Assembly: GCA_025361365.1 (NCBI GenBank)
Contig: JANYAM010000005.1
Location: 1 to 34,289 of the forward strand
Reading direction: 5' to 3'
DNA: 34,289 nt
Source of the DNA: Opitutus sp.
GTDB taxonomy: Bacteria > Verrucomicrobiota > Verrucomicrobiia > Opitutales > Opitutaceae
Made by a program: the position numbers and the translations under genes. Positions 6,796 through 30,841 of this stretch are shown piece by piece. Every line of letters begins with the position of its first letter. Position 1 is the first letter of the stretch. The notes beneath the pieces are model-generated. The model was not told where the DNA came from and ran no database searches. It was given only the letters and a program-made list of their open reading frames with translations.

Positions 6796-9630
6796 TTACT
6801 CCAACGCCTTCCCCGTCAGCGACCGCGGCGTCTTCACCAAACCTTCCACCGGCCCGGCATACACGACCTCGCCGCCGTCCGGCCCGCCGCCCGGACCGAG
6901 GTCGATGACCCAGTCGGCCAGCCGGATGACGTCGAGGTTATGCTCGATGACGACCAGCGTGTTGCCGGCATCGCGCAACTTGAAGAGCAGGTCCATCAAG
7001 CGCTGGATGTCGGTCCAGTGCAGGCCTGTGGTCGGTTCGTCGAGAATGTAGAGCGTGGTGCCCTGCTCGCGCTTGCTGAGCTCGAGCGAGAGCTTGATGC
7101 GCTGGGCCTCGCCACCGGACAGCGTCGTGGCCGACTGACCCAGCTGCAGGTAACCGAGGCCGACCGCGTCGAGCGTCGCCAGCTTCTCCATGATGCGCGG
7201 CACCAAACGGAACAGCGTCATCGCCTCCGCCACCGTCATCGCCAGCACGTCGGCGATGCTCTTGCCATGGAAGCGCACCTCCAGCGTCTCGCGGTTGAAG
7301 CGCCGGCCGTCGCAGCTCGGGCATGGGGCGTAGGCGTCAGCCATGAACTGCATGTCCAACTTGATCTGGCCGTCGCCCTGGCAGCGCTCGCAGCGGCCGC
7401 CGCGGACATTGAAGCTGAAACGGTTCGCCTTGTAGCCGCGCACCTTGGCCAGCGGCAGCTTCGCAAAGAGATCGCGCAACAGGTCGAGCAGGCCGACATA
7501 GCTCGCCGGGTTGGAGCGCGGGCTGCGACCGATGGGCTCCTGGTCCACCACCACGGCTTTTTCAAAGTGCTCGAGCCCGGTCAGGCCGCGATGGCGGCCG
7601 GGCAGCATCTTCGCGCCGTTGAGCTTCCGCGCGGCGGCGGTGGCGAGAATATCGTTCACGAGGGAACTCTTGCCGGAGCCGGACACGCCCGTGACGCATG
7701 TCAATAGGCCGACGGGAAACTTCGCCTCGACGTTCTTCAGGTTGTGCTCCGTCGCGCCCTTGACCGTCAGCCAGCGATCGTCGGGCGGCTTGGTCTTGCC
7801 GTCCTTCACGACGCCGAGCTGGCCGGCCAGATAGGCTCCGGTGCGCGAGGCCGACGCGGGCAGCTTCGCGCAATCCGCCGGAGAACCTTGGAAAAGAATC
7901 TGCCCGCCCTCGGTGCCCGCGCCGGGTCCGAGTTCGATCAACTCGTCGGCGATGCGGATCGTGTCGGCATCGTGCTCGACGACCAGCACCGTGTTACCAC
8001 GATCGCGCAGTTCGCGCAGCGTGGCCAGCAACCTCCGGTTGTCGTGGGCGTGCAGACCGATGCTCGGCTCGTCCAGCACGTAGATGACGCCCACCAGCCC
8101 CATGCCGAGCTGCGTCGCCAGCCGGACGCGTTGCGCCTCGCCACCGGACAGCGTGGGATATTCGCGATCGAGCGTCAGGTAGCCAAGGCCGGTTTCGTTC
8201 AGGAAATGCAACCGCTGCGTCACGCCGTCTAGCACCTCGCGCACCGCGTCGGTCACCGGCAGCACGGATCGCAGGCCCGCCGCGAACTCCAGCGCGTGGC
8301 GGATATCCGATGCGGTGAACTCCGCGAAATTCTTTTCGCTCACTTTCACCGCGAGACTGCGCGGGTTGAGCCGCAGGCCGTGGCAGGTCGGACATTCGCC
8401 ACTCGTCATGAAAGTCGCAAGGCGCGCGCGGTAGCCGTCGCTGCGCGATTCGCGGCGCCCGGCTTCGAGCAGCGCGATCACACCCGGGAACGGCTTGGAC
8501 TCGGCTTTCTGCGTGCGCCGTATCCGGAAACTGAACAGCCGCTCGCCGGCGCCGTGCAGCAACGTGTGCCGGATTTCCGTGGGCAGATCCTGCCACGGTG
8601 TCTCGGGGTCGTAGGGCAGCTGTTCGGCGAGCTGCTTCAGGATGGAGCTGTGGCGGATGATCAGGTTCCGGCCGCCGATCCGCCAGGGCTTGATGGCGCC
8701 CTCGCGCACGGATTTCTCCGGCTTCGGCACGATCAGCTCCTCGCTGAATGTCATCTGCCGGCCGAGCCCGCCGCAGGTCTCGCAGGCGCCCTCGGCGTGG
8801 TTGAAGGAGAAATGCCGCGGCGTGAGCGGCTCGAAGACGTCGCCGCAAATGGCGCAGCTCAGGCTCTGGCTGAGGTTGATCTCGCGCCACGGCGCGTCGG
8901 GGCCCTTTTGCGCCAGCACGAGGGCGCGGTTGCCGCCCTCGCGGAAAGCCAGCTCGAGCGAGTCGGCCAGCCGGCTGCGCTGCTCGGCGGTGACCTGCAC
9001 GCGGTCGATGACGATCTCGACCACCAGCTCGTCCGCGCCGTTGGGCACGAGGCGCGGTTCGTCGAGGGACTTGATTTCGCCGGCGAGGCGCACGCGCTGG
9101 AAGCCCCGCTGGCGGAGCCGCGGCAGTTCGTCGCGCAGGACGGACGGCTTAGCCGTCATCCACGGCGCGAGGATGATGGCGCGTTCGCCGGGGGCGTCGC
9201 GGAAAAGCTGGTTGAGGCAGTCGTCGAGCGAGCGTTTCTCGACGCGGCCGCCGTCCTTCGGGCAGCGCTGCTCGCCGCAGAGCGCCCAGAGCAGCCGCGC
9301 GTAATCGGCCACCTCGGTCACGGTGGCCACGGTGCTGCGGGGCGAACCGCCGCCAGTGCGCTGCTCGATGGCGAGCACGGGCGACAGGCCGTGGATGAAA
9401 TCGACATCGGGCCGCTTGAGTTGCTCGAGGACCTGGCGCGCCGAGGCGGAGAGGCTCTCCATGTATTTGCGGTAGCCCTCGGCGTAGATCGTGTCGAAGG
9501 CCAGCGACGACTTGCCCGAGCCGCTCGGCCCGGTGAGCACGACGAGTTTGCCCCGCGGGATGCGCAGCTCCAGGTTCCGGAGGTTGTGTTCCCGGGCTCC
9601 CTTGATGTGGAGATGTGACGCGGCGTCCAT
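6796..9630 (-). CDS. uvrA: Excinuclease ABC subunit A
   Basis: Damage-recognition ATPase of nucleotide excision repair, forming UvrA2UvrB. 944 aa from ATG 9630; a TTG at 9666 would extend it by 12 residues, but family N-termini match the ATG ([20 protein letters not shown]). Two ABC ATPase halves are present. The first has Walker [10 protein letters not shown] near 34 and signature [15 protein letters not shown] with Walker [14 protein letters not shown]. The second has GVSGSGKSS near 648 and [15 protein letters not shown] with [13 protein letters not shown]. The UvrB-binding region is present ([18 protein letters not shown]...SLDEP), so this is a UvrA1-type protein. Zinc modules CAICGD...CETCGG (about 257-290) and CERCQGDG...CPSCDGRRF (about 746-780) are intact. 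The segment that often reads CPxCG near residue 105 is CPKDGG here. Divergent from the DUF1302 gene. Confidence 0.97.
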
Positions 9631-9793
9631 GACCACCCAAGGTTGCCGCTTTAGGGCGGGCGTCAAAAGGCTAATGCGAAAAGAAAGCCGCTGCCTGACT
9701 GCGGTTTAGCACTTGAAGTTGCCGGGGAAACCCAGCTTCATGGCCGCCAGTAAATCCCCAAGCCACCGGGCTTGTTCCCTACCCCACTAACCC

Positions 9794-9826: not shown

Positions 9827-11812
9827 ATGAACCTACGCAAAGCCATCCCCCGTTGTCTGCGTCTTCCGCTCGCTGCCAGCCTGATCCTCGCTCTCGGCAT
9901 CGCGCCCACCGCCCGGGCGTTCCTCTTTGAGCTCGGCGAGGCCAAGGGCAGCTTCGACACGACCATCTCGGTCGGCAGCCTCTACCGCCTGAACGATCCG
10001 GACCCGGCCTTCTACGGCCTCACCAACGGCGGCCTCCAACGGTCGGTCAACTCCGACGACGGCGACCTGAACTACCGCCACGGCTTCAATTCCTTTCTGG
10101 TGAAAGCCAACCACGACCTGCTCATCAAATACCAGCAGGCCGGCCTGTTCGTGCGGGGTTTCTATTTCAACGACTTCATGAACTCCAACGGCGTCCGCCC
10201 GCATCTCGCGCTGAGCGACGAGGCCCAGAAGGTCGTCGGTTCAGGCGCTGAGCTGCTCGACGCCTACGTCTACTTCAACGAGAACATCAGCGGCATGCCG
10301 GTAAGCTTCCGCGTCGGCCGCCAGGTCCTGAGTTGGGGCGAGAGCACTTTCATCCCCAACGGCGTCAACTCCATCAATCCGGTCGACGTCGGCAAGCTCC
10401 GCACCCCCGGCTCCGAGCTCAAGGAGGCGCTGCGGCCCCTCATGATGGCGTCCGGTTCGATCAACTTCACCGAGTCGCTCAGCGCCGAGGCCTTCTACCT
10501 CTTCGGCTGGGAGCGCACCCGCATCGACCCGCCCGGCACCTATTTCAGCACGAATGACTTCGTGGGCAAGGGCGGCCGGAAGATCTACCTCGGCTTCGGG
10601 GCCATCAACGACACTTCCGGCCTGGGCGCCATCCCTCGCGGCACGGACCGCGAGCCCGGCTCCAGCGGCCAGTATGGTGTCAACCTCAAGTGGCTCGCCC
10701 ACGGGCTCAAAGACACGGAGTTCGGCCTTTACTACATGACTTACCACAGCCGGCTCCCGGTCATCTCGGCCACGACGCCGACCGAGGGCATCGTCGTTAC
10801 CAATATCACCGGCAACACCGCCGCTGCCCTGCAGGGCAACGCCGCCTTCCTCGGCGCGCTGGTGCCATCCGCCGCAGCGGCCGGCTTACCCACGAGCACC
10901 GCCCTCACGGTCCTGATCGGCGCCTCCCTCGGCGATCCGACCGCCACCGCGACGCTCAACGCTTTCCCGGCGCTCCAGCCGTTACTGCCGACCGTCGCCG
11001 GCGTCAGCGGCCAGTTCTCCCAGCTCGAACTGCTCACGCGGGCCGCCACCGGCCGCTATATCATCGAGTTCCCGTCGGACATCCACCTCTGGGGCGCCAG
11101 CTTCAACACCAGCGTCAAGGGCATCGCGATCCAGGGCGAGCTCAGTTACCGCAACAACCAGCCGCTCCAGGTGGATGACGTCGAGCTGCTCTTCGCCGCG
11201 CTCTCCCCGCTCAGCTCGCGCTTCGCCCCCAACAACCAGCTCGGGGCCTTCGCGCTCAACACCTACGTCCCGGGCTTCCGCCGGGTGAAGGTGACCACCG
11301 GCCAGATGACCGCGACCAAGGTGACCCGCGGCTTCTTTGGCGCCGACCAGAGCACCTTCATCGGCGAGGCCGGCTTCGTGAACGCCGACCTGCCCGACAA
11401 GAGCACCCTGCGCTTCGACGGCCCCGGCACCTTCGTCGGCGGCAACCTCAACTACATGAATCTGTCCGGCAGCAACGCCTCCGGCGTCCAGCCGGCCTCC
11501 GAGCCGGCCTCGGCCTTCGCCGACAGCTTCTCCTGGGGTTACCAGCTGGTGGGCCGCCTCGACTACAACAACGCCTTCAAGGGCGTGAACGTCTCCCCAC
11601 TCCTCGTCTTCTCGCACGACGTCGGCGGCAACACGCCGCTGCCGATGGGCAACTTCATCCACGGTCGCAAGTCCCTCACAATCGGCGCGGACTTCACCTT
11701 CCAGAACGCGTGGGCCGTCGAGCTCCGCTACGTGAGCTTCTTCGGTGGCGGCCGCTACAACCTGATCGCTGACCGCGATTATATCTCCTGCAACCTGAAG
11801 TATTCGTTCTAA
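9827..11812 (+). CDS. DUF1302 family outer-membrane beta-barrel protein
   Basis: 661 aa from ATG 9827; a TTG at 9812 is upstream in frame but adds nothing recognisable. Signal peptide MNLRKAIPRCLRLPLAASLI...PTARA with the mature end FLFELGEAKGSFDTTISVGS. That start, with SLYRLNDPDP, RHGFNSFLVKANHDLL, RVGRQVLSWGESTFIPNGVN and NPVDVGKLRTPGSELKEALR, is characteristic of DUF1302 proteins. The protein ends in ...NLKYSF; the terminal Phe and alternating strand pattern fit an outer-membrane barrel. The central region (about 320-400) is Ala/Thr-rich and less conserved. In other bacteria, mainly Proteobacteria, DUF1302 genes neighbour DUF1329 genes and RND pumps as here. Probable outer-membrane channel or receptor of the four-gene cluster; cargo unknown. 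Confidence 0.9.
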   Translation: MNLRKAIPRCLRLPLAASLILALGIAPTARAFLFELGEAKGSFDTTISVGSLYRLNDPDPAFYGLTNGGLQRSVNSDDGDLNYRHGFNSFLVKANHDLLIKYQQAGLFVRGFYFNDFMNSNGVRPHLALSDEAQKVVGSGAELLDAYVYFNENISGMPVSFRVGRQVLSWGESTFIPNGVNSINPVDVGKLRTPGSELKEALRPLMMASGSINFTESLSAEAFYLFGWERTRIDPPGTYFSTNDFVGKGGRKIYLGFGAINDTSGLGAIPRGTDREPGSSGQYGVNLKWLAHGLKDTEFGLYYMTYHSRLPVISATTPTEGIVVTNITGNTAAALQGNAAFLGALVPSAAAAGLPTSTALTVLIGASLGDPTATATLNAFPALQPLLPTVAGVSGQFSQLELLTRAATGRYIIEFPSDIHLWGASFNTSVKGIAIQGELSYRNNQPLQVDDVELLFAALSPLSSRFAPNNQLGAFALNTYVPGFRRVKVTTGQMTATKVTRGFFGADQSTFIGEAGFVNADLPDKSTLRFDGPGTFVGGNLNYMNLSGSNASGVQPASEPASAFADSFSWGYQLVGRLDYNNAFKGVNVSPLLVFSHDVGGNTPLPMGNFIHGRKSLTIGADFTFQNAWAVELRYVSFFGGGRYNLIADRDYISCNLKYSF

Positions 11813-11831
11813 CCCGACGCCACCCCACTAT

Positions 11832-13187
11832 ATGAAAACGAAAATTCTTCTGCTCTCCGTCATCTGTCTTCTGACTTCCGTCCTCGGCGCCCGGGCCGGC
11901 ATCTCCGCCGCCGACGCCAGCCGCCTCGGCAACGACCTCACGCCGCTCGGCGGCGAAAAGGCCGGCAATGCCGACGGCTCCATCCCCGCGTGGGACGGCG
12001 GCATCACCAAGGCCCCCGCTGGCTACACCCCGGGCATGCACCATCCTGATCCGTTCGCCGGCGACACGGTGAAGTTCACCATCACCGCCGCCAACGCGGA
12101 CCAGTATGCCGGCAAGCTCAGCGCCGGTCACCTCGCGCTACTCAAGGCCTACCCGGATTACGTGATGCCGGTCTACACGACCCACCGCAGCGCCTCGAAC
12201 CCGCAGCGCATCTACGACGCCACCAAGCAGTATGCCACCACCGCGTCCCTCACCGAGGGCGGGAACGGCATCACTGGCGCCGTCATCGGCACGCCGTTCC
12301 CCATCCCGCAGAACGGCCTCGAGGTCATCTGGAATCACCTCACCCGCTACCGCGGCGTCGCGGCCAGCCGCCACATCAGCCAGGCGGCCCCGCAGCGCAA
12401 CGGCAGCTACACCCTCGTGGATTTCGACGACGAGTTCCTCTTCAACTACGTCCGCGACGGCATCCAGGAGAAGGACCTCGACAACATCCTCATCTACTTC
12501 AAACAGGCCGTCACGGCGCCCGCCCGCCTCGCCGGCTCCATCCTCATCGTGCACGAGACGATGGACCAGGTGAAGGAGCCCCGCACCGCCTGGCTTTACA
12601 ACACCGGTCAGCGCCGGGTCCGCCGCGCGCCGAATGTGGCCTACGACAATCCCGGCACGGCCGCCGACAACATGCGCACGTCGGACCAGTTTGACATGTT
12701 CAACGGCGCGCCCGACCGCTACGACTGGAAGCTCGTCGGCAAAAAGGAAATGTTCGTCCCCTACAATTCCTACAAGCTCCACAGCGACTCGCTCAAATAC
12801 AGTGACATCCTGAAGCCGCTCCACATCAACCAGGACCTCACCCGCTACGAACTCCACCGCGTGTGGGTTGTGGATGCCACCCTCAAGGCCGGCACCAACC
12901 ACGTCTACAGCCGGCGCACCTTCTACTTCGATGAGGACAGCTGGCAGATCCTCGCCGTCGACCAATACGACAGTCGCGGCCAGCTCTGGCGTGTCTCCGA
13001 GGCCCACTGCATCAACTACTATGATGCCCAGACCTTCTGGAGCACGCTGGAGGTTCACACCGACCTGCTGGCCGGCCGTTACCTCGCCATCGGCTTGGAC
13101 AACGAGACCAAGATGTATGACTTCACCCTGGTGCGCACCCCGGCGGATTACACCCCGGCCACCCTGCGCCAGGAAGGCGTCCGCTGA
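11832..13187 (+). CDS. DUF1329 family periplasmic/outer-membrane-associated protein
   Basis: 451 aa, ATG 11832, 19 bp after the DUF1302 stop. Signal peptide MKTKILLLSVICLLTSVLGA then RAGISAADASRLGNDLTPLG. DUF1329 hallmarks follow: GGEKAGNADGSIPAWDGGIT, YTPGMHHPDPFAGD, an internal RRVRRAPNVAYDNPGTA, YELHRVWVVDATLK and YSRRTFYFDEDSWQILAVDQ near the C-terminal third. By family knowledge these proteins resemble the LolA/LolB lipoprotein-carrier fold and are thought to sit in the periplasm or on the inner face of the outer membrane. A role as a lipid/hydrophobe carrier between the RND pump and the DUF1302 barrel is inference. The DNA of its signal peptide resembles the TCTGTC/TCCGTC repeats before the AI-2E gene (see findings). 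Confidence 0.92.
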   Translation: MKTKILLLSVICLLTSVLGARAGISAADASRLGNDLTPLGGEKAGNADGSIPAWDGGITKAPAGYTPGMHHPDPFAGDTVKFTITAANADQYAGKLSAGHLALLKAYPDYVMPVYTTHRSASNPQRIYDATKQYATTASLTEGGNGITGAVIGTPFPIPQNGLEVIWNHLTRYRGVAASRHISQAAPQRNGSYTLVDFDDEFLFNYVRDGIQEKDLDNILIYFKQAVTAPARLAGSILIVHETMDQVKEPRTAWLYNTGQRRVRRAPNVAYDNPGTAADNMRTSDQFDMFNGAPDRYDWKLVGKKEMFVPYNSYKLHSDSLKYSDILKPLHINQDLTRYELHRVWVVDATLKAGTNHVYSRRTFYFDEDSWQILAVDQYDSRGQLWRVSEAHCINYYDAQTFWSTLEVHTDLLAGRYLAIGLDNETKMYDFTLVRTPADYTPATLRQEGVR

Positions 13188-13202
13188 TCAAGTTTAAGCC
13201 CA

Positions 13203-13231
13203 AGGGCGGCCCTCACCCGGCCGCCCTTTTT
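13203..13231 (+). terminator. Rho-independent terminator inside the envelope cluster
   Basis: AGGGCGGCC (13203-13211) pairs with GGCCGCCCT (13219-13227) around a 7-nt loop, followed by a T-run (13227-13231). It lies 16 bp after the DUF1329 stop and before the YCF48-like gene on the same strand. It should reduce or stop read-through, so the two halves of the cluster may be expressed at different levels or from separate promoters. Confidence 0.85.
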
Positions 13232-13267
13232 CTTGTGTGTCATTCGACACCCAGCGAAAAATCACTC

Positions 13268-14272
13268 ATGCCGAGCCAGTCGAATCCTGTAGCGGCGGTC
13301 TATGACCGCCGTTCCCATTCGCCGGCGGTCACAGACCGCCGCTACAGGGTATGGCTTCTTCTCTGCCTCACTCTCACCGTCACTCTCAGTCCGGCCTCCG
13401 CCGCCGAGACCTCGGAGCTGGCTCCGCTGGCTTCCAAGTCCCTCCTCCTCGCCGTCGCCCGCGCCGGAGACCGGCTAGTCGCCGTGGGTGATCGCGGGCA
13501 TGTGCTGCTCTCGAGCGACCAAGGCCGCAGCTGGACGCAGAGCCTCACTCCGACCCGCGCCCTCCTGACCAGCGTCTCCTTCGCCGATGCCCAGCACGGC
13601 TGGGCTGTGGGCCATGATGGTGTCATCCTCGCCACGAGCGACGGCGGGGCGACCTGGACGCGACAGGACAATGGCAAGGATCTCGAGACCGTCTATCTCT
13701 CCGTGCTTTTCCGCGACGCAACCCACGGGTTTGCCGCCGGCGCCTACGGCAAGTTTGTCGCCACGGTGGACGGCGGGAAAACCTGGACCGCCGCCAAGCC
13801 CTCGCCCGATGAGGTGCACTACAACCGCCTCACCGCGGGCCTCGATGGCTATCTCTATCTGGCCGGTGAAGGCGGCCTGCTGCTGGTGTCAAATGATGGT
13901 GGCAAGCAGTGGATCAAGTCCGAGGTGCCTTATGAAGGCTCACTCTTCGGCGCACTGCCCATCGAGAACGGCCGGGTAATCGTCTACGGCCTGCGCGGCC
14001 ACATCCTGCGCTCGGAGGACCGTGGCGCCAACTGGACGCAGGCAAACAGCGCGGTGTTGATCCTCATCATGGGCGGCGTGCGGCTGCCCGCCGGCCCGAT
14101 CGTGCTCGCCGGCCAGGGCGGCAATTTCTTCGTGAGCCGCGACGGCGGCCGCTTGTTCAGTCCCTGGAAACCGGCCGATTTCGGCACCAGCATCGCTGAC
14201 GTCATTGACGCCGGCGATGGCACCCTGCTCACCGTCGGCGAGGCCGGCGCGGTTCGCGTCACCCTGCCATGA
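13268..14272 (+). CDS. YCF48/HCF136-like exported beta-propeller protein
   Basis: 334 aa from ATG 13268; a GTG at 13235 is in frame but lies in the terminator tail. A basic N-region precedes a hydrophobic stretch (VWLLLCLTLTVTL) and a SPASAA cleavage region, so it is exported. Six or seven BNR/YCF48-type blades follow: GDRGHVLLSSDQGRSWTQ, GHDGVILATSDGGATWTRQ, GAYGKFVATVDGGKTWTA, GEGGLLLVSNDGGKQWIKS, GLRGHILRSEDRGANWTQ and GQGGNFFVSRDGGRLF. Its N-region (residues about 7-27) is encoded by a complete REP-like palindrome; no in-frame ATG/GTG/TTG exists between that element and the hydrophobic core. The four-gene context suggests an assembly or adaptor role for the RND system; YCF48 is known for photosystem II assembly, which is not expected here. 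Confidence 0.88.
   Translation: MPSQSNPVAAVYDRRSHSPAVTDRRYRVWLLLCLTLTVTLSPASAAETSELAPLASKSLLLAVARAGDRLVAVGDRGHVLLSSDQGRSWTQSLTPTRALLTSVSFADAQHGWAVGHDGVILATSDGGATWTRQDNGKDLETVYLSVLFRDATHGFAAGAYGKFVATVDGGKTWTAAKPSPDEVHYNRLTAGLDGYLYLAGEGGLLLVSNDGGKQWIKSEVPYEGSLFGALPIENGRVIVYGLRGHILRSEDRGANWTQANSAVLILIMGGVRLPAGPIVLAGQGGNFFVSRDGGRLFSPWKPADFGTSIADVIDAGDGTLLTVGEAGAVRVTLP
13287..13347. repeat. GTAG-headed REP-like pair inside the YCF48-like reading frame
   Basis: The left unit 13287-13311 starts CTGTAGCGGCGGTCTATG and folds as CGGCGGTC-TAT-GACCGCCG. The right unit 13323-13347 is inverted and folds as CGGCGGTC-ACA-GACCGCCG, ending CTACAG. It is translated as residues about 7-27 of the YCF48-like precursor. 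Same family as 20230-20277 and 30790-30841. Confidence 0.9.
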
Positions 14273-14296
14273 GATCCACGATGATCCCTGCCTTAA

Positions 14297-14352
14297 GGTG
14301 GAACGCGTTGCCCTCAACGCGTTCGAGCGGCTTGAGGGCAAGCCGCTCCACC
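14297..14352. repeat. GTGG-headed REP-like pair upstream of the RND gene
   Basis: The left unit GTGG-AACGCGTT-GCCCTC-AACGCGTT starts at 14298. The right unit, read on the minus strand, is GTGG-AGCGGCTTG-CCCT-CAAGCCGCT. The outer arms are 14297-14317 and 14332-14352. It fills most of the gap between the YCF48-like stop (14272) and the RND start (14364). The stems differ between halves but each half pairs with itself, which supports selection for hairpins. Confidence 0.85.
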
Positions 14353-14363
14353 GCGATTATCCC

Positions 14364-16700
14364 ATGATCGCCCGTCTCGAGGAACTCGTCTTCCGGCACC
14401 GCCCGGTCACCCTCGCGATCTTCGTGCTGATCACCGGCGTGCTCGGGTTCTTCGCGGCGCGCACGCGGATCGACGCCAGCTTCGACAAGCAGCTGCCGAC
14501 CGGGCACGAATACATCGAGACCTTCAAGAAGCACCGCACCCAGTTCGGTGGCGCCAACCGCGTGGTCATCGCCCTCGTGGCGAAGCAGGGCGACATCTTC
14601 ACGTCGGAATTCTTCAAGACCCTCAAGGCCGTCACGGACGAGACCTACTACCTGCCCGGCGTCGACCGGGCCCAGGTCACCTCCATCTACACGCCGAATG
14701 TCCGCTACATTGAGGTTATCGAGGACGGCTTGGCGGGCGGCAATGTCATCCCGGCGGATTTTGCCCCCGACGCGGCCGGCCTGGAGAAAGTCCGCCAGAA
14801 CGTCATCAAGTCCGGCCGCGTCGGCATGCTCGTGGCCAACGATTTCACCGGCGCCGCCGTCATCGCCTCGTTGCTCGAGGTCGATCCGTCCACCGGCCAG
14901 AAGCTCGATTACGCCCAGGTCGCGGCAGCGTTGGAGAAAAACATCCGCGCCAAATACCAGAGCGACCAGATCAGCATTCACATCATCGGTTTCGCCAAGG
15001 TCATCGGCGACATCACCGACGGCGCCAAGGGTGTGCTGGTATTCTTCGGCATCGCGCTCGTGATCTCCGCGGTGCTGCTTTTCTATTTCTCCCAGTCGCT
15101 GATGCTCACGGTGCTGCCGCTGCTGACCTCCTTCTGCGCCGTCATCTGGCAGTTCGGCATCCTCAACCTGCTCGGCTTCGGCATCGATCCGCTCTCGATC
15201 CTTGTGCCGTTCCTGGTGTTCGCCATCGCGCTGAGCCACGCCACGCAGATGCTGCGGTCCTTCCGCTATGAGATCAACATGGGCAAGGACGAACTCGCCG
15301 CGGCCCGCGCCTCGTTCAGCAATCTCTTCGTCCCCGGCTGCGTCGCGATCCTGACCGGTACCGTCGGCTTCAGCACCATCTACCTGGTGACCGTCCCAAC
15401 CATCCAGGAGCTCGCCATCACCGCCAGCCTCGGCGTGTTCCTGATCATCTTCACCGACCGCTTTCTGCTGCCGGTGCTCATCTCCTACCTCCGGGTGACC
15501 CCGGAATTCCGGAAGCGCGTCAACTTCCGGCGCTTTGCCCTGCAGCCCTACTGGCGCCGCCTGGTGAACTTCACCACCGGCCCGCGCAGCTCCATCGTCA
15601 TAATCGTCATCTCGGCCATCCTCCTCGTCTACGGCTGGGTCGAGTCGCACGAGGTCAAGATCGGCGACCTCTACGCCGGCGTGCCCGAGTTGCGCCAGGA
15701 TTCCCGCTATAATAAGGACAGCGCGGTCATCACGCGCGAGTTCAGCATCGGCGTCGACGTCATCACTGTGCTCGTGGAGACTGTGCCCAACGCTGTGATC
15801 GACCACGACATCATGGCGCTGGTGGATCAGTTCGGCTGGCACATGCGCAACGTCGAGGGCGTGCAATCCACTCTCTCGCTGGCCGACCTGGCGAAAACCA
15901 TCAATGCAGGTTGGAACGAAGGCAGCCTCAAGTGGCGCGTCATCGCCCGCAACCCCGCCGCGCTGGCCCAATCCGTGTCGCCGGTCGAGACAGCCAGCGG
16001 CCTGCTCAACAACGATGGCAGCGTCATCCCGGTGATGATCTATCTCAAGGACCACAAGGCCGAGACCATCAAGCGCGTCGTCGCCGCCGTGAAGGAATTC
16101 CGCGCGATCCACGACACCGGCCGGTCCAAGTTCAAGCTGGCCACGGGCAACGTCGGCGTCATGGCCGCCACCAACGAGGTCGTGGCCGCCGCGCAGACGC
16201 CGATGGTCATGTGGGTTTACGCCGCCGTCATCGTGCTCTGCCTGCTCTCCTTCCGCTCCTGGCGCGGCGCGGTGTGCGTCATCGCGCCGCTGATCGTCGT
16301 CTCCTATCTCGGCTACGCGATGAAGTATCACCTGCACATCGGCTTGAAAACCTCGACGCTGCCGGTGATCGCCCTCGGCGTCGGCATCGGCGTGGACTAT
16401 GGCATCTACCTCTTCTCCGCCATCCGCGAGCGGCTGCGGAACGGCGACACCTTCGAGGACGCGCTCTGCTTCGCTTTCGCCACCATGGGCACCTCGGTGA
16501 TGTTCACCGGCAGCGCGCTGGCGGCGGGCGTCGGCACGTGGGCATTCTCGGCCCTGAAGTTCCAGGCCGATATGGGCATCCTGCTGAGCTTCCTGTTTTT
16601 CTTCAACATGCTCGGCGCGATGCTGCTCATGCCCGCGCTCGGCCGCTGGCTCTTTCGCGACAAGCTCGCCTGCCGATTCAAGCCGACGACGAAACCTTAA
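14364..16700 (+). CDS. RND/MMPL-type efflux transporter (HAE3-like)
   Basis: 778 aa from ATG 14364 (MIARLEELVFRHRPVTLAIF). The ORF stays open to 14205, but that extension crosses the preceding stop and a REP-like element and is not credible. Topology: TM1 about 12-34, a large periplasmic loop to about 220, a TM bundle about 222-375, TM7 about 408-427, a second periplasmic loop, and a second bundle about 610-770, giving roughly 12 TMs in two repeats. Family motifs include GFGIDPLSILVPFLVFAIAL SHATQMLRSF in the first half and GVGIGVDYGIYLFSAIRERL in the second. Driven by proton motive force in the family. No membrane-fusion-protein gene is adjacent; the DUF1329 and YCF48 proteins may take that place. 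Substrate unknown, likely hydrophobic. Confidence 0.92.
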   Translation: MIARLEELVFRHRPVTLAIFVLITGVLGFFAARTRIDASFDKQLPTGHEYIETFKKHRTQFGGANRVVIALVAKQGDIFTSEFFKTLKAVTDETYYLPGVDRAQVTSIYTPNVRYIEVIEDGLAGGNVIPADFAPDAAGLEKVRQNVIKSGRVGMLVANDFTGAAVIASLLEVDPSTGQKLDYAQVAAALEKNIRAKYQSDQISIHIIGFAKVIGDITDGAKGVLVFFGIALVISAVLLFYFSQSLMLTVLPLLTSFCAVIWQFGILNLLGFGIDPLSILVPFLVFAIALSHATQMLRSFRYEINMGKDELAAARASFSNLFVPGCVAILTGTVGFSTIYLVTVPTIQELAITASLGVFLIIFTDRFLLPVLISYLRVTPEFRKRVNFRRFALQPYWRRLVNFTTGPRSSIVIIVISAILLVYGWVESHEVKIGDLYAGVPELRQDSRYNKDSAVITREFSIGVDVITVLVETVPNAVIDHDIMALVDQFGWHMRNVEGVQSTLSLADLAKTINAGWNEGSLKWRVIARNPAALAQSVSPVETASGLLNNDGSVIPVMIYLKDHKAETIKRVVAAVKEFRAIHDTGRSKFKLATGNVGVMAATNEVVAAAQTPMVMWVYAAVIVLCLLSFRSWRGAVCVIAPLIVVSYLGYAMKYHLHIGLKTSTLPVIALGVGIGVDYGIYLFSAIRERLRNGDTFEDALCFAFATMGTSVMFTGSALAAGVGTWAFSALKFQADMGILLSFLFFFNMLGAMLLMPALGRWLFRDKLACRFKPTTKP

Positions 16701-30789: not shown

Positions 30790-30841
30790 CTGTAGCGGCG
30801 CTCTATGAGCGCCGTCCGGCGGTCACAGACCGCCGCTACAG
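30790..30841. repeat. GTAG-headed REP-like pair (TAGCGGCG family)
   Basis: The left unit 30790-30814 folds CGGCGCTC-TAT-GAGCGCCG, and the inverted right unit 30817-30841 folds CGGCGGTC-ACA-GACCGCCG. The outer heads are CTGTAG and CTACAG. Three differences between the halves leave each hairpin's pairing intact (the stem pair changed on both sides). The rluD stop TAG (30836-30838) is made by the right head. Confidence 0.9.

Follow-up and report, generated by a model that had tools for sequence, protein, structure and literature searches.

A Probable AmeABCD-Type DUF1302-DUF1329-YCF48-RND Cassette in Opitutus with a Recurrent Terminator-Like Hairpin after the DUF1329 Gene

Introduction

The transfer of greasy molecules across the two membranes of Gram-negative bacteria without an adaptor tunnel is poorly known. 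The closest described system is AmeABCD of Castellaniella defragrans, published in 2018. In the parts of that report drawn on here, a deletion strain is less tolerant of non-functionalised monoterpenes and, once uncoupled, accumulates slightly more Nile Red; real-time Nile Red efflux is almost identical with and without the genes, and a tetrapartite exporter is proposed as the model (PMC6394551). In Pseudomonas putida, PP_0765/PP_0766 and PP_2018/PP_2019 are described as needed for growth on Tween 20, with a strong predicted contact between PP_2019 and PP_2018 and weak ones for PP_0766-PP_2019 and PP_0766-PP_0765 (excerpts of PMC10866462).

Related proteins have also been placed in vesicle and hydrocarbon contexts, as far as the cited sections of those sources go. 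The benzene degrader ORM2a has a 'nanopod' cluster, proposed to transport hydrocarbons, with total spectrum counts (not length-corrected) of 106 for the porin-like protein, 158 for DUF1329, 65 for YCF48 and 60 for MMPL (PMC13101534). Delftia nanopod proteins include DUF1302 and DUF1329 proteins (PMC3110197), and disruption of the YCF48 gene phnL, which greatly diminished vesicle production (PMC3958437), concerns a gene that carries the next locus tag after the nanopod DUF1329 gene (PMC3958437, PMC3110197). A phenol-hydroxylase cluster of Zoogloea contains DUF1302 and DUF1329 genes as well (PMC7012976).

An initial annotation of the Opitutus locus had called the mechanism of such clusters largely undescribed. 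That statement is overtaken by the AmeABCD deletion phenotype and exporter model, the P. putida contacts and the ORM2a cluster, as far as the cited portions of these reports extend. The AmeABCD phenotype, as given in those portions, also assigns in part a known function to the set, which the same annotation had counted as evidence against its own candidate system. The literature searched, mostly open-access, gave no account of the set in Verrucomicrobiota or of a terminator within it, and the text of PMC6394551 (its figure 7 tree aside) contains none of the words 'terminator', 'Verruco' and 'Opitut'.

Results and Discussion

The four genes and their proteins

The window, the whole stretch of 34,289 nucleotides that was analyzed, carries the DUF1302-DUF1329-YCF48-MMPL/RND set as four open, intact and collinear plus-strand genes at 9827-16700 (Table 1). 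The cluster is therefore as initially annotated, with each gene named by Pfam and in the same order, and the families of all four fit the parts of a trans-envelope hydrophobe transport system. The genome (3.56 Mb in 297 contigs, 99.7% complete) has one DUF1302 match and one DUF1329 match. No MFP or TolC gene was found among the ORFs scanned around the cassette, as had been noted from the sequence, and the HAE1 tripartite hallmark, an MFP and a TolC-type channel in the operon, is absent from the four cassette genes. We consider it very probable that the set is an AmeABCD-type RND system for hydrophobic molecules.

Table 1. Features of the cassette and its surroundings (window positions)
Feature	Position	Strand	Evidence
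uvrA, head-to-head neighbor, outside the transporter set	6796..9666	-	TIGR00630, NF001503 over cut-off
Gene A, DUF1302, AmeA-type exported outer-membrane barrel	9827..11812 (ATG 9827)	+	Pfam 8.7e-164
Gene B, DUF1329, exported LolA-type periplasmic carrier, AmeB-type	11832..13187	+	Pfam 2e-162
Intrinsic-terminator-like hairpin with T tail, directly 3' of B, splitting AB / CD	13202..13228	+	10 pairs
Gene C, YCF48/BNR propeller, AmeC-type	GTG 13235 or ATG 13268 to 14272	+	PSII_BNR/YCF48 3.9e-24
Palindromic REP-like repeat, B-C region, overlapping the N-terminal reading of C	13292..13342		core 13292, inverted copy 13323
Gene D, MMPL/RND inner-membrane pump, HAE3-like, AmeD-type	14364..16700	+	Pfam MMPL 2e-27

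The model of gene A (mean pLDDT 90.5) is a barrel of 18 long strands by manual count with a helical insert at residues 324-406. Its nearest solved folds are those of the OprD/Occ proteins (OpdQ/OccK; Z 18.6, rmsd 3.2, 307 aligned), and it matches OpdQ as an 18-stranded OprD/Occ barrel fold at 8% identity. A PDB sequence search gave no matches at E up to 1; the likeness is thus one of fold only, and gene A is not filed as a member of OprD. At least 50 residues of the helical insert are present in 19 of 68 aligned sequences, and among the printed rows it is filled in eight of Opitutaceae type and in loci L138 and L140, and not in L129 or L137.

Gene B encodes 451 aa and was modeled with a pLDDT of 89.3. 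Foldseek placed the model nearest to LolA3 (9tp6, 1.4e-15), a DUF1329-family crystal structure (4z48, 1.5e-13) and 3bk5 (1.9e-13). TM scores were 0.74-0.84 by target length and 0.42-0.47 by query length, from which the LolA/LolB-type fold (E at most 1.9e-13) covers approximately half of the protein. The Pfam LolA_like family also matches (2.5e-7), and a PDB sequence search returned nothing at E up to 0.1.

The N-terminus of gene C is signal-peptide-like, although which of its two possible starts is used is uncertain. The protein matches Ycf48 structures, best 2xbg (1.3e-20). The REP-like repeats may have reshaped its N-terminus. The palindromes at 13292-13342 and 30795-30836 of the window have one core in common, and this core was also seen at the C-D junction of loci L079 and L080 and, in L079, close to the start of C as well.

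The start of gene D is likewise uncertain; its frame is open from 14205, and the tabulated ATG, just before TM1, is preferred. The best NCBIfam match is the HAE3 model TIGR00921 (6.2e-46), at 156.8 bits below the 351.9 cut-off. Its distant relatives of solved structure are MmpL pumps and the RND transporter 5khn (3.1e-7), which we take to be HpnN. Scores against the HpnN models themselves fell short of their cut-offs (TIGR03480, 65 bits vs 751.85; NF052374, 18 vs 1100). Across 137 distinct aligned pumps of over 700 residues, a Ser-His pair in the first half is found in 137/137 and an Asp-Tyr pair in the second half in 136/137, with one gap. The Asp-Tyr pair is presumably the proton relay, as in work on MmpL and HpnN.

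Distribution and inheritance of the cassette

DUF1329 was matched in 86 of 150 sampled Opitutaceae genomes at E at most 1e-3, 79 of them strong and full-length and 7 weak; a full-length copy was not found in the other 71 by that count, some of which are incomplete. A sample of 337 genomes from the phylum gave 20 strong matches, 18 inside the family. Outside it, strong matches occurred in 2 of about 308 sampled genomes, a count that holds if the phylum listing follows kinship, as it seems to: G257, from the same order, and G417, from another family. The Verrucomicrobiota host suggested from the sequence agrees with this concentration in Opitutaceae (79/150 vs 2/~308 elsewhere in the phylum). 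The four-family set is found in several phyla.

Eighty loci were fetched by place, 78 from the family plus those of G257 and G417; the 78 come from 77 of the 79 strong genomes, the window's own genome and G014 not being included. Another 80 named loci are the best of at least 591 confirmed candidates, a selection of the nearest relatives rather than a random draw; six more loci lie on plasmids. Six named loci (L125, L126, L128, L132, L133 and L158), which duplicate contigs of family members under labels of Opitutaceae, Cephaloticoccus, Candidatus Didemnitutus, Opitutae and Opitutia, were excluded from counts of distinct loci. All four genes are present in 74 of the 78 family loci; the others (L070, L073, L087 and L088) end at contig ends. 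Among the 86 loci that are named or plasmid-borne, the stretch contains all of A, B, C and D in 68, AB only in 12, no A in four, no D in one and B alone in one. Complete sets were defined by the presence of all four genes within a single fetched stretch; the order A-B-C-D holds in 130 of 132 distinct ones, AB and CD being apart in L120 and L167. From this collinearity, the grouping of the genes exceeds chance.

A tree of each protein, the check first proposed for co-transfer, was built from 63 hand-chosen rows (quick ML, LG+G4, SH-aLRT only, unrooted), plasmid-borne sets of Pseudomonas, Massilia, Azospirillum and Indioceanicola included. All 29 family members group with L077 and L137, both Opitutales, in each tree (support of 95 for A, 92 for B, 99 for C and 100 for D), and the window stands beside G071 in all four. 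The trees are broadly congruent and the cassette is inherited as one block in Opitutaceae, with one discordance: L115 is on the window's side in the D tree but not in those of A, B or C. Being unrooted, the trees speak to grouping and not to the donor or direction of any transfer.

The Opitutaceae genome G006 has two cassettes, L066 and L115, the latter amid beta-oxidation genes. B genes were also seen in MAGs labelled Acidiferrobacteraceae (L129), Desulfuromonadales (L135) and Flavobacterium (L184, B alone), with 69%, 68% and 58% identity to the window's B, the first two matching it as closely as some Opitutales B genes. These off-lineage genes are possibly mis-binned contigs or recent transfers.

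A fixed chromosomal place

Among the family loci having at least 1 kb of upstream sequence, a divergent uvrA lies directly upstream in 64 of 71, further away in one, and is absent in six. It also adjoins eight named loci labelled Opitutaceae, Opitutae, Cephaloticoccus or Didemnitutus, four of which repeat family contigs. It was not found at L077, L078 or 69 other named or plasmid loci with long upstream sequence; loci without an adjoining uvrA include L136, from Opitutaceae, and L137. On the 3' side of the window's cassette are an AI-2E family transporter gene and an exonuclease-like gene that scores below its model cut-off. With TGT and PGI, these neighbors and uvrA are all housekeeping genes. 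No catabolic genes were seen alongside among the named neighbors, which matches the first description of the locus. A single entry of the cassette beside uvrA early in Opitutaceae, with later losses, would fit the distribution. Alteromonadales cassettes have a site of their own between the pepN and glutamate dehydrogenase (gdh) genes (31 and 33 loci), with none of the tested fatty-acid-type genes nearby.

Fixed sites of this kind, without metabolic genes there, and the joint inheritance of the four genes would suit a housekeeping role, in which the cassette would maintain one of the cell's own lipids in its outer membrane, comparable to what HpnN does for hopanoids, and would have no link to nutrients or toxins. 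However, the 71 family genomes in which full-length DUF1329 was not found, incomplete ones among them, make the set look dispensable, and hopanoids are disfavored as its cargo (see below). We regard a housekeeping role as improbable.

A terminator-like hairpin between AB and CD

The hairpin directly after gene B has a fold z of -3.65, with 1 of 200 shuffles equally good. Since shuffles of the scanned region yield 4.7 (sd 2.5) terminator-like sites and the region itself has eight, a single site proves little; the case is its recurrence. When one detector was applied to the distinct loci, a hairpin was found in 60 of 146 B-C gaps and in none of the 269 other internal gaps (A-B 0/135, C-D 0/134). 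By group, the B-C hairpin occurs in 30/78 family loci (window included), 1/7 other Opitutales and 29/61 non-Opitutales loci. In dinucleotide shuffling, done on a locus set with the six repeats still in, the expectation never exceeded 0.8 in any combination of group and gap. The B-C gaps are longer (medians of 203-236 vs 23-49 for the other gaps), and the shuffles allow for length.

The B-C hairpin may mean that AB and CD are simply two transcription units, or that there is partial read-through between them. Its direction agrees with the spectrum counts of the ORM2a cluster and with the separation of AB from CD in some lineages. A hairpin after D was also seen in 1/66 family, 0/7 other Opitutales and 18/56 non-Opitutales loci. 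Over the scanned region, no promoter was found (vs 1.0 in shuffles), and there were no Rfam matches at gathering thresholds and no tRNA genes.

Neighbors in relatives and the candidate cargo

Genes for fatty-acid-type functions were sought by similarity to seven query proteins that represent five kinds (FadD, FadB, FadA, VolA and GPAT). Within 3.5 kb, at least one such gene was found at 18/82 other loci, 1/6 plasmid loci and 1/78 family loci. The 82 include 13 from Opitutales, none positive, so that the nearest loci outside that order give 18/69. The counts are raw, uncorrected for background, and are biased upward because the queries were drawn from loci first seen with such genes. The cases are not independent, nine of the 18 positives being AB-only loci (seven Pseudomonas, one Marinobacter and one Oleispira), and those of L143 and L160 rest on approximately 30% identity to the ligase.

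Genes for a FadD-like ligase, a FadB-like protein and a FadA-like thiolase are located 3' of D in L138, L140 and L144, and the same three kinds surround L115, the second cassette of G006. A FadD-like gene lies 5' of AB in the Pseudomonas loci and on plasmid L119. A VolA/Pla-1-type phospholipase gene is found 5' of A in L200, where it passes the model cut-off, in L148, where it narrowly misses it, and in L201, at 35% identity. A GPAT gene has that position in L159 and L197. From these neighbors, an acyl lipid is the best guess at the cargo, and acyl lipids or similar hydrophobes are probably the cargo of the Opitutaceae cassette. Of the cargoes first suggested for this locus, lipid thus draws on the fatty-acid, lipase and GPAT neighbors of related loci, but 77 of the 78 family loci have none of the tested genes within 3.5 kb (some stretches end at contig ends).

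A hopanoid, also suggested, is disfavored. None of the 150 family genomes has a hopene cyclase over the TIGR01507 cut-off, and of the 11 with weak matches none is the window's genome.

Two dependencies on fatty-acid metabolism were considered and rejected. Genomes were scored for the cassette by DUF1329 (E at most 1e-100) and for beta-oxidation by ACAD (at most 1e-15) and 3HCDH (at most 1e-20); for FadL, every listed genome was counted. ACAD was found in 36/79 genomes with the cassette vs 13/71 without, and 3HCDH in 44/79 vs 18/71, a genome-level odds ratio of approximately 3.7. The association is weaker by genus (3HCDH p 0.045, ACAD p 0.14) and was not seen within genera (CMH z 0.7-1.0). Given this nil within-genus signal and the 32 of 79 cassette-bearing genomes with neither marker, dependence on beta-oxidation was rejected. 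In the window's genome the 3HCDH value is 2.1e-5, with 21 of 40 candidates scored, which is weak evidence of absence. That the cassette replaces FadL was rejected as well, FadL being found in 31/79 genomes with the cassette vs 29/71 without it.

Export of long-chain olefins or beta-lactones of the Ole pathway was suggested by a gene in the window's genome that passes the NF006720 (PRK09258) cut-off and is followed by an alpha/beta hydrolase (L207:5326-7405, G000:C32). We take this model to be OleA. Such a gene lies approximately 25-32 kb from DUF1329 in five of the six other sampled genomes of the genus (G071, G093, G130, G037 and G147), but approximately 180 kb away in G113. Moreover, it passes in 136 of 150 family genomes, 75/79 with the cassette and 61/71 without; being near-universal, its presence hardly tracks the cassette. 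The Ole reading is rejected as highly improbable.

Proposed mechanism and direction of transport

The following scheme starts from what the analysis shows, namely the genes and their order, the modeled folds of A and B, the joint inheritance of the set and the recurrent hairpin; its energy source, contacts, direction, cargo and stoichiometry are inferred. The HAE3-like pump D would use the proton gradient to extract a hydrophobic molecule from either the inner membrane or the periplasm, with the YCF48 propeller C seated on its periplasmic part. An abundant LolA-type shuttle, B, would ferry the cargo across the periplasm in place of a fixed adaptor tunnel, and the OprD-like barrel A would hand it to the outer leaflet or to the outside. 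In the Opitutaceae branch the most likely candidate cargo would be a free fatty acid or other acyl lipid, moving outward. The terminator-like hairpin between B and C would keep barrel and carrier in excess over propeller and pump. That an AmeABCD-type system moves a fatty acid or other acyl lipid outward in just this manner has, in our estimate, even chances, with a wide error. Against it stand the near-identical real-time Nile Red efflux of the two AmeABCD strains, a pump score below the HAE3 cut-off, and the lack of fatty-acid-type neighbors at nearly all family loci and at the Alteromonadales site. The broader proposal of a cross-phylum RND-powered acyl-lipid machine, with an excess soluble shuttle and a terminator after the carrier that sets two modules at unequal dose, is more tentative.

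The main rival of the outward model is inward transport. Here barrel A would be the entry, carrier B the shuttle, and pump D an energized sink or flippase for fatty acids or hydrophobic nutrients. Such an importer would account for the requirement for the P. putida homologues during growth on Tween 20, as reported in the cited part of PMC10866462; FadD, FadB, FadA and the VolA/Pla-1-type phospholipase are uptake-and-use genes, and no FadL-family match was found in the window's genome. Nevertheless, FadL shows no relation to the cassette across the family and both beta-oxidation markers are missing from many carriers, as counted above. An inward-working RND pump was not met in the portions of the literature on these sets that were consulted, and the AmeABCD data are interpreted as export by their authors in the sections cited (PMC6394551). 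An importer is, on this evidence, rather unlikely. Growth on Tween 20 and the link to lipases are equally compatible with import and export, and the outward direction is unproven.

The outward model may be approached from a simple starting point, since the Opitutus copy is the only cassette in its genome, has a site that is fixed in the family and has no catabolic genes in view. The telling neighbors in its relatives make the cargo, the direction and the carrier-to-pump ratio directly testable.

Comparison with known systems

The Opitutus set and AmeABCD, as the latter is described in the cited parts of its report, have the same four families in the identical order A-B-C-D, with a B protein of 451 aa in both. 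Each has a pump described as HAE3-like, in Opitutus by a best match that stays below the model cut-off, and no classical MFP or TolC. This likeness is one of family content, order and published description, and not of sequence alignment. The settings differ: AmeABCD belongs to a monoterpene metabolic island and is monoterpene-induced, whereas the Opitutus set lies beside uvrA with no catabolic genes seen.

The P. putida set, from the excerpts cited, also resembles the Opitutus set, since its DUF1302 and DUF1329 proteins come with a periplasmic protein and an efflux transporter. Its two halves are apart in the genome, as judged by locus tags, while the four Opitutus genes are adjacent. The ORM2a cluster, as far as its published description was drawn on, has two extra genes inside it and a hydrocarbon-degradation context that the Opitutus set is without.

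HpnN, the hopanoid RND transporter, is an HAE3-type lipid pump to which gene D is weakly similar (through 5khn). Unlike the Opitutus set, it works without partners of the A, B and C types, according to the cited part of PMC6394551. A further difference is that no hopene cyclase passes the cut-off in the sampled Opitutaceae genomes. Compared with all of these, the kind of system is already known from AmeABCD, and the new detail is the terminator-like hairpin after the DUF1329 gene and its recurrence.
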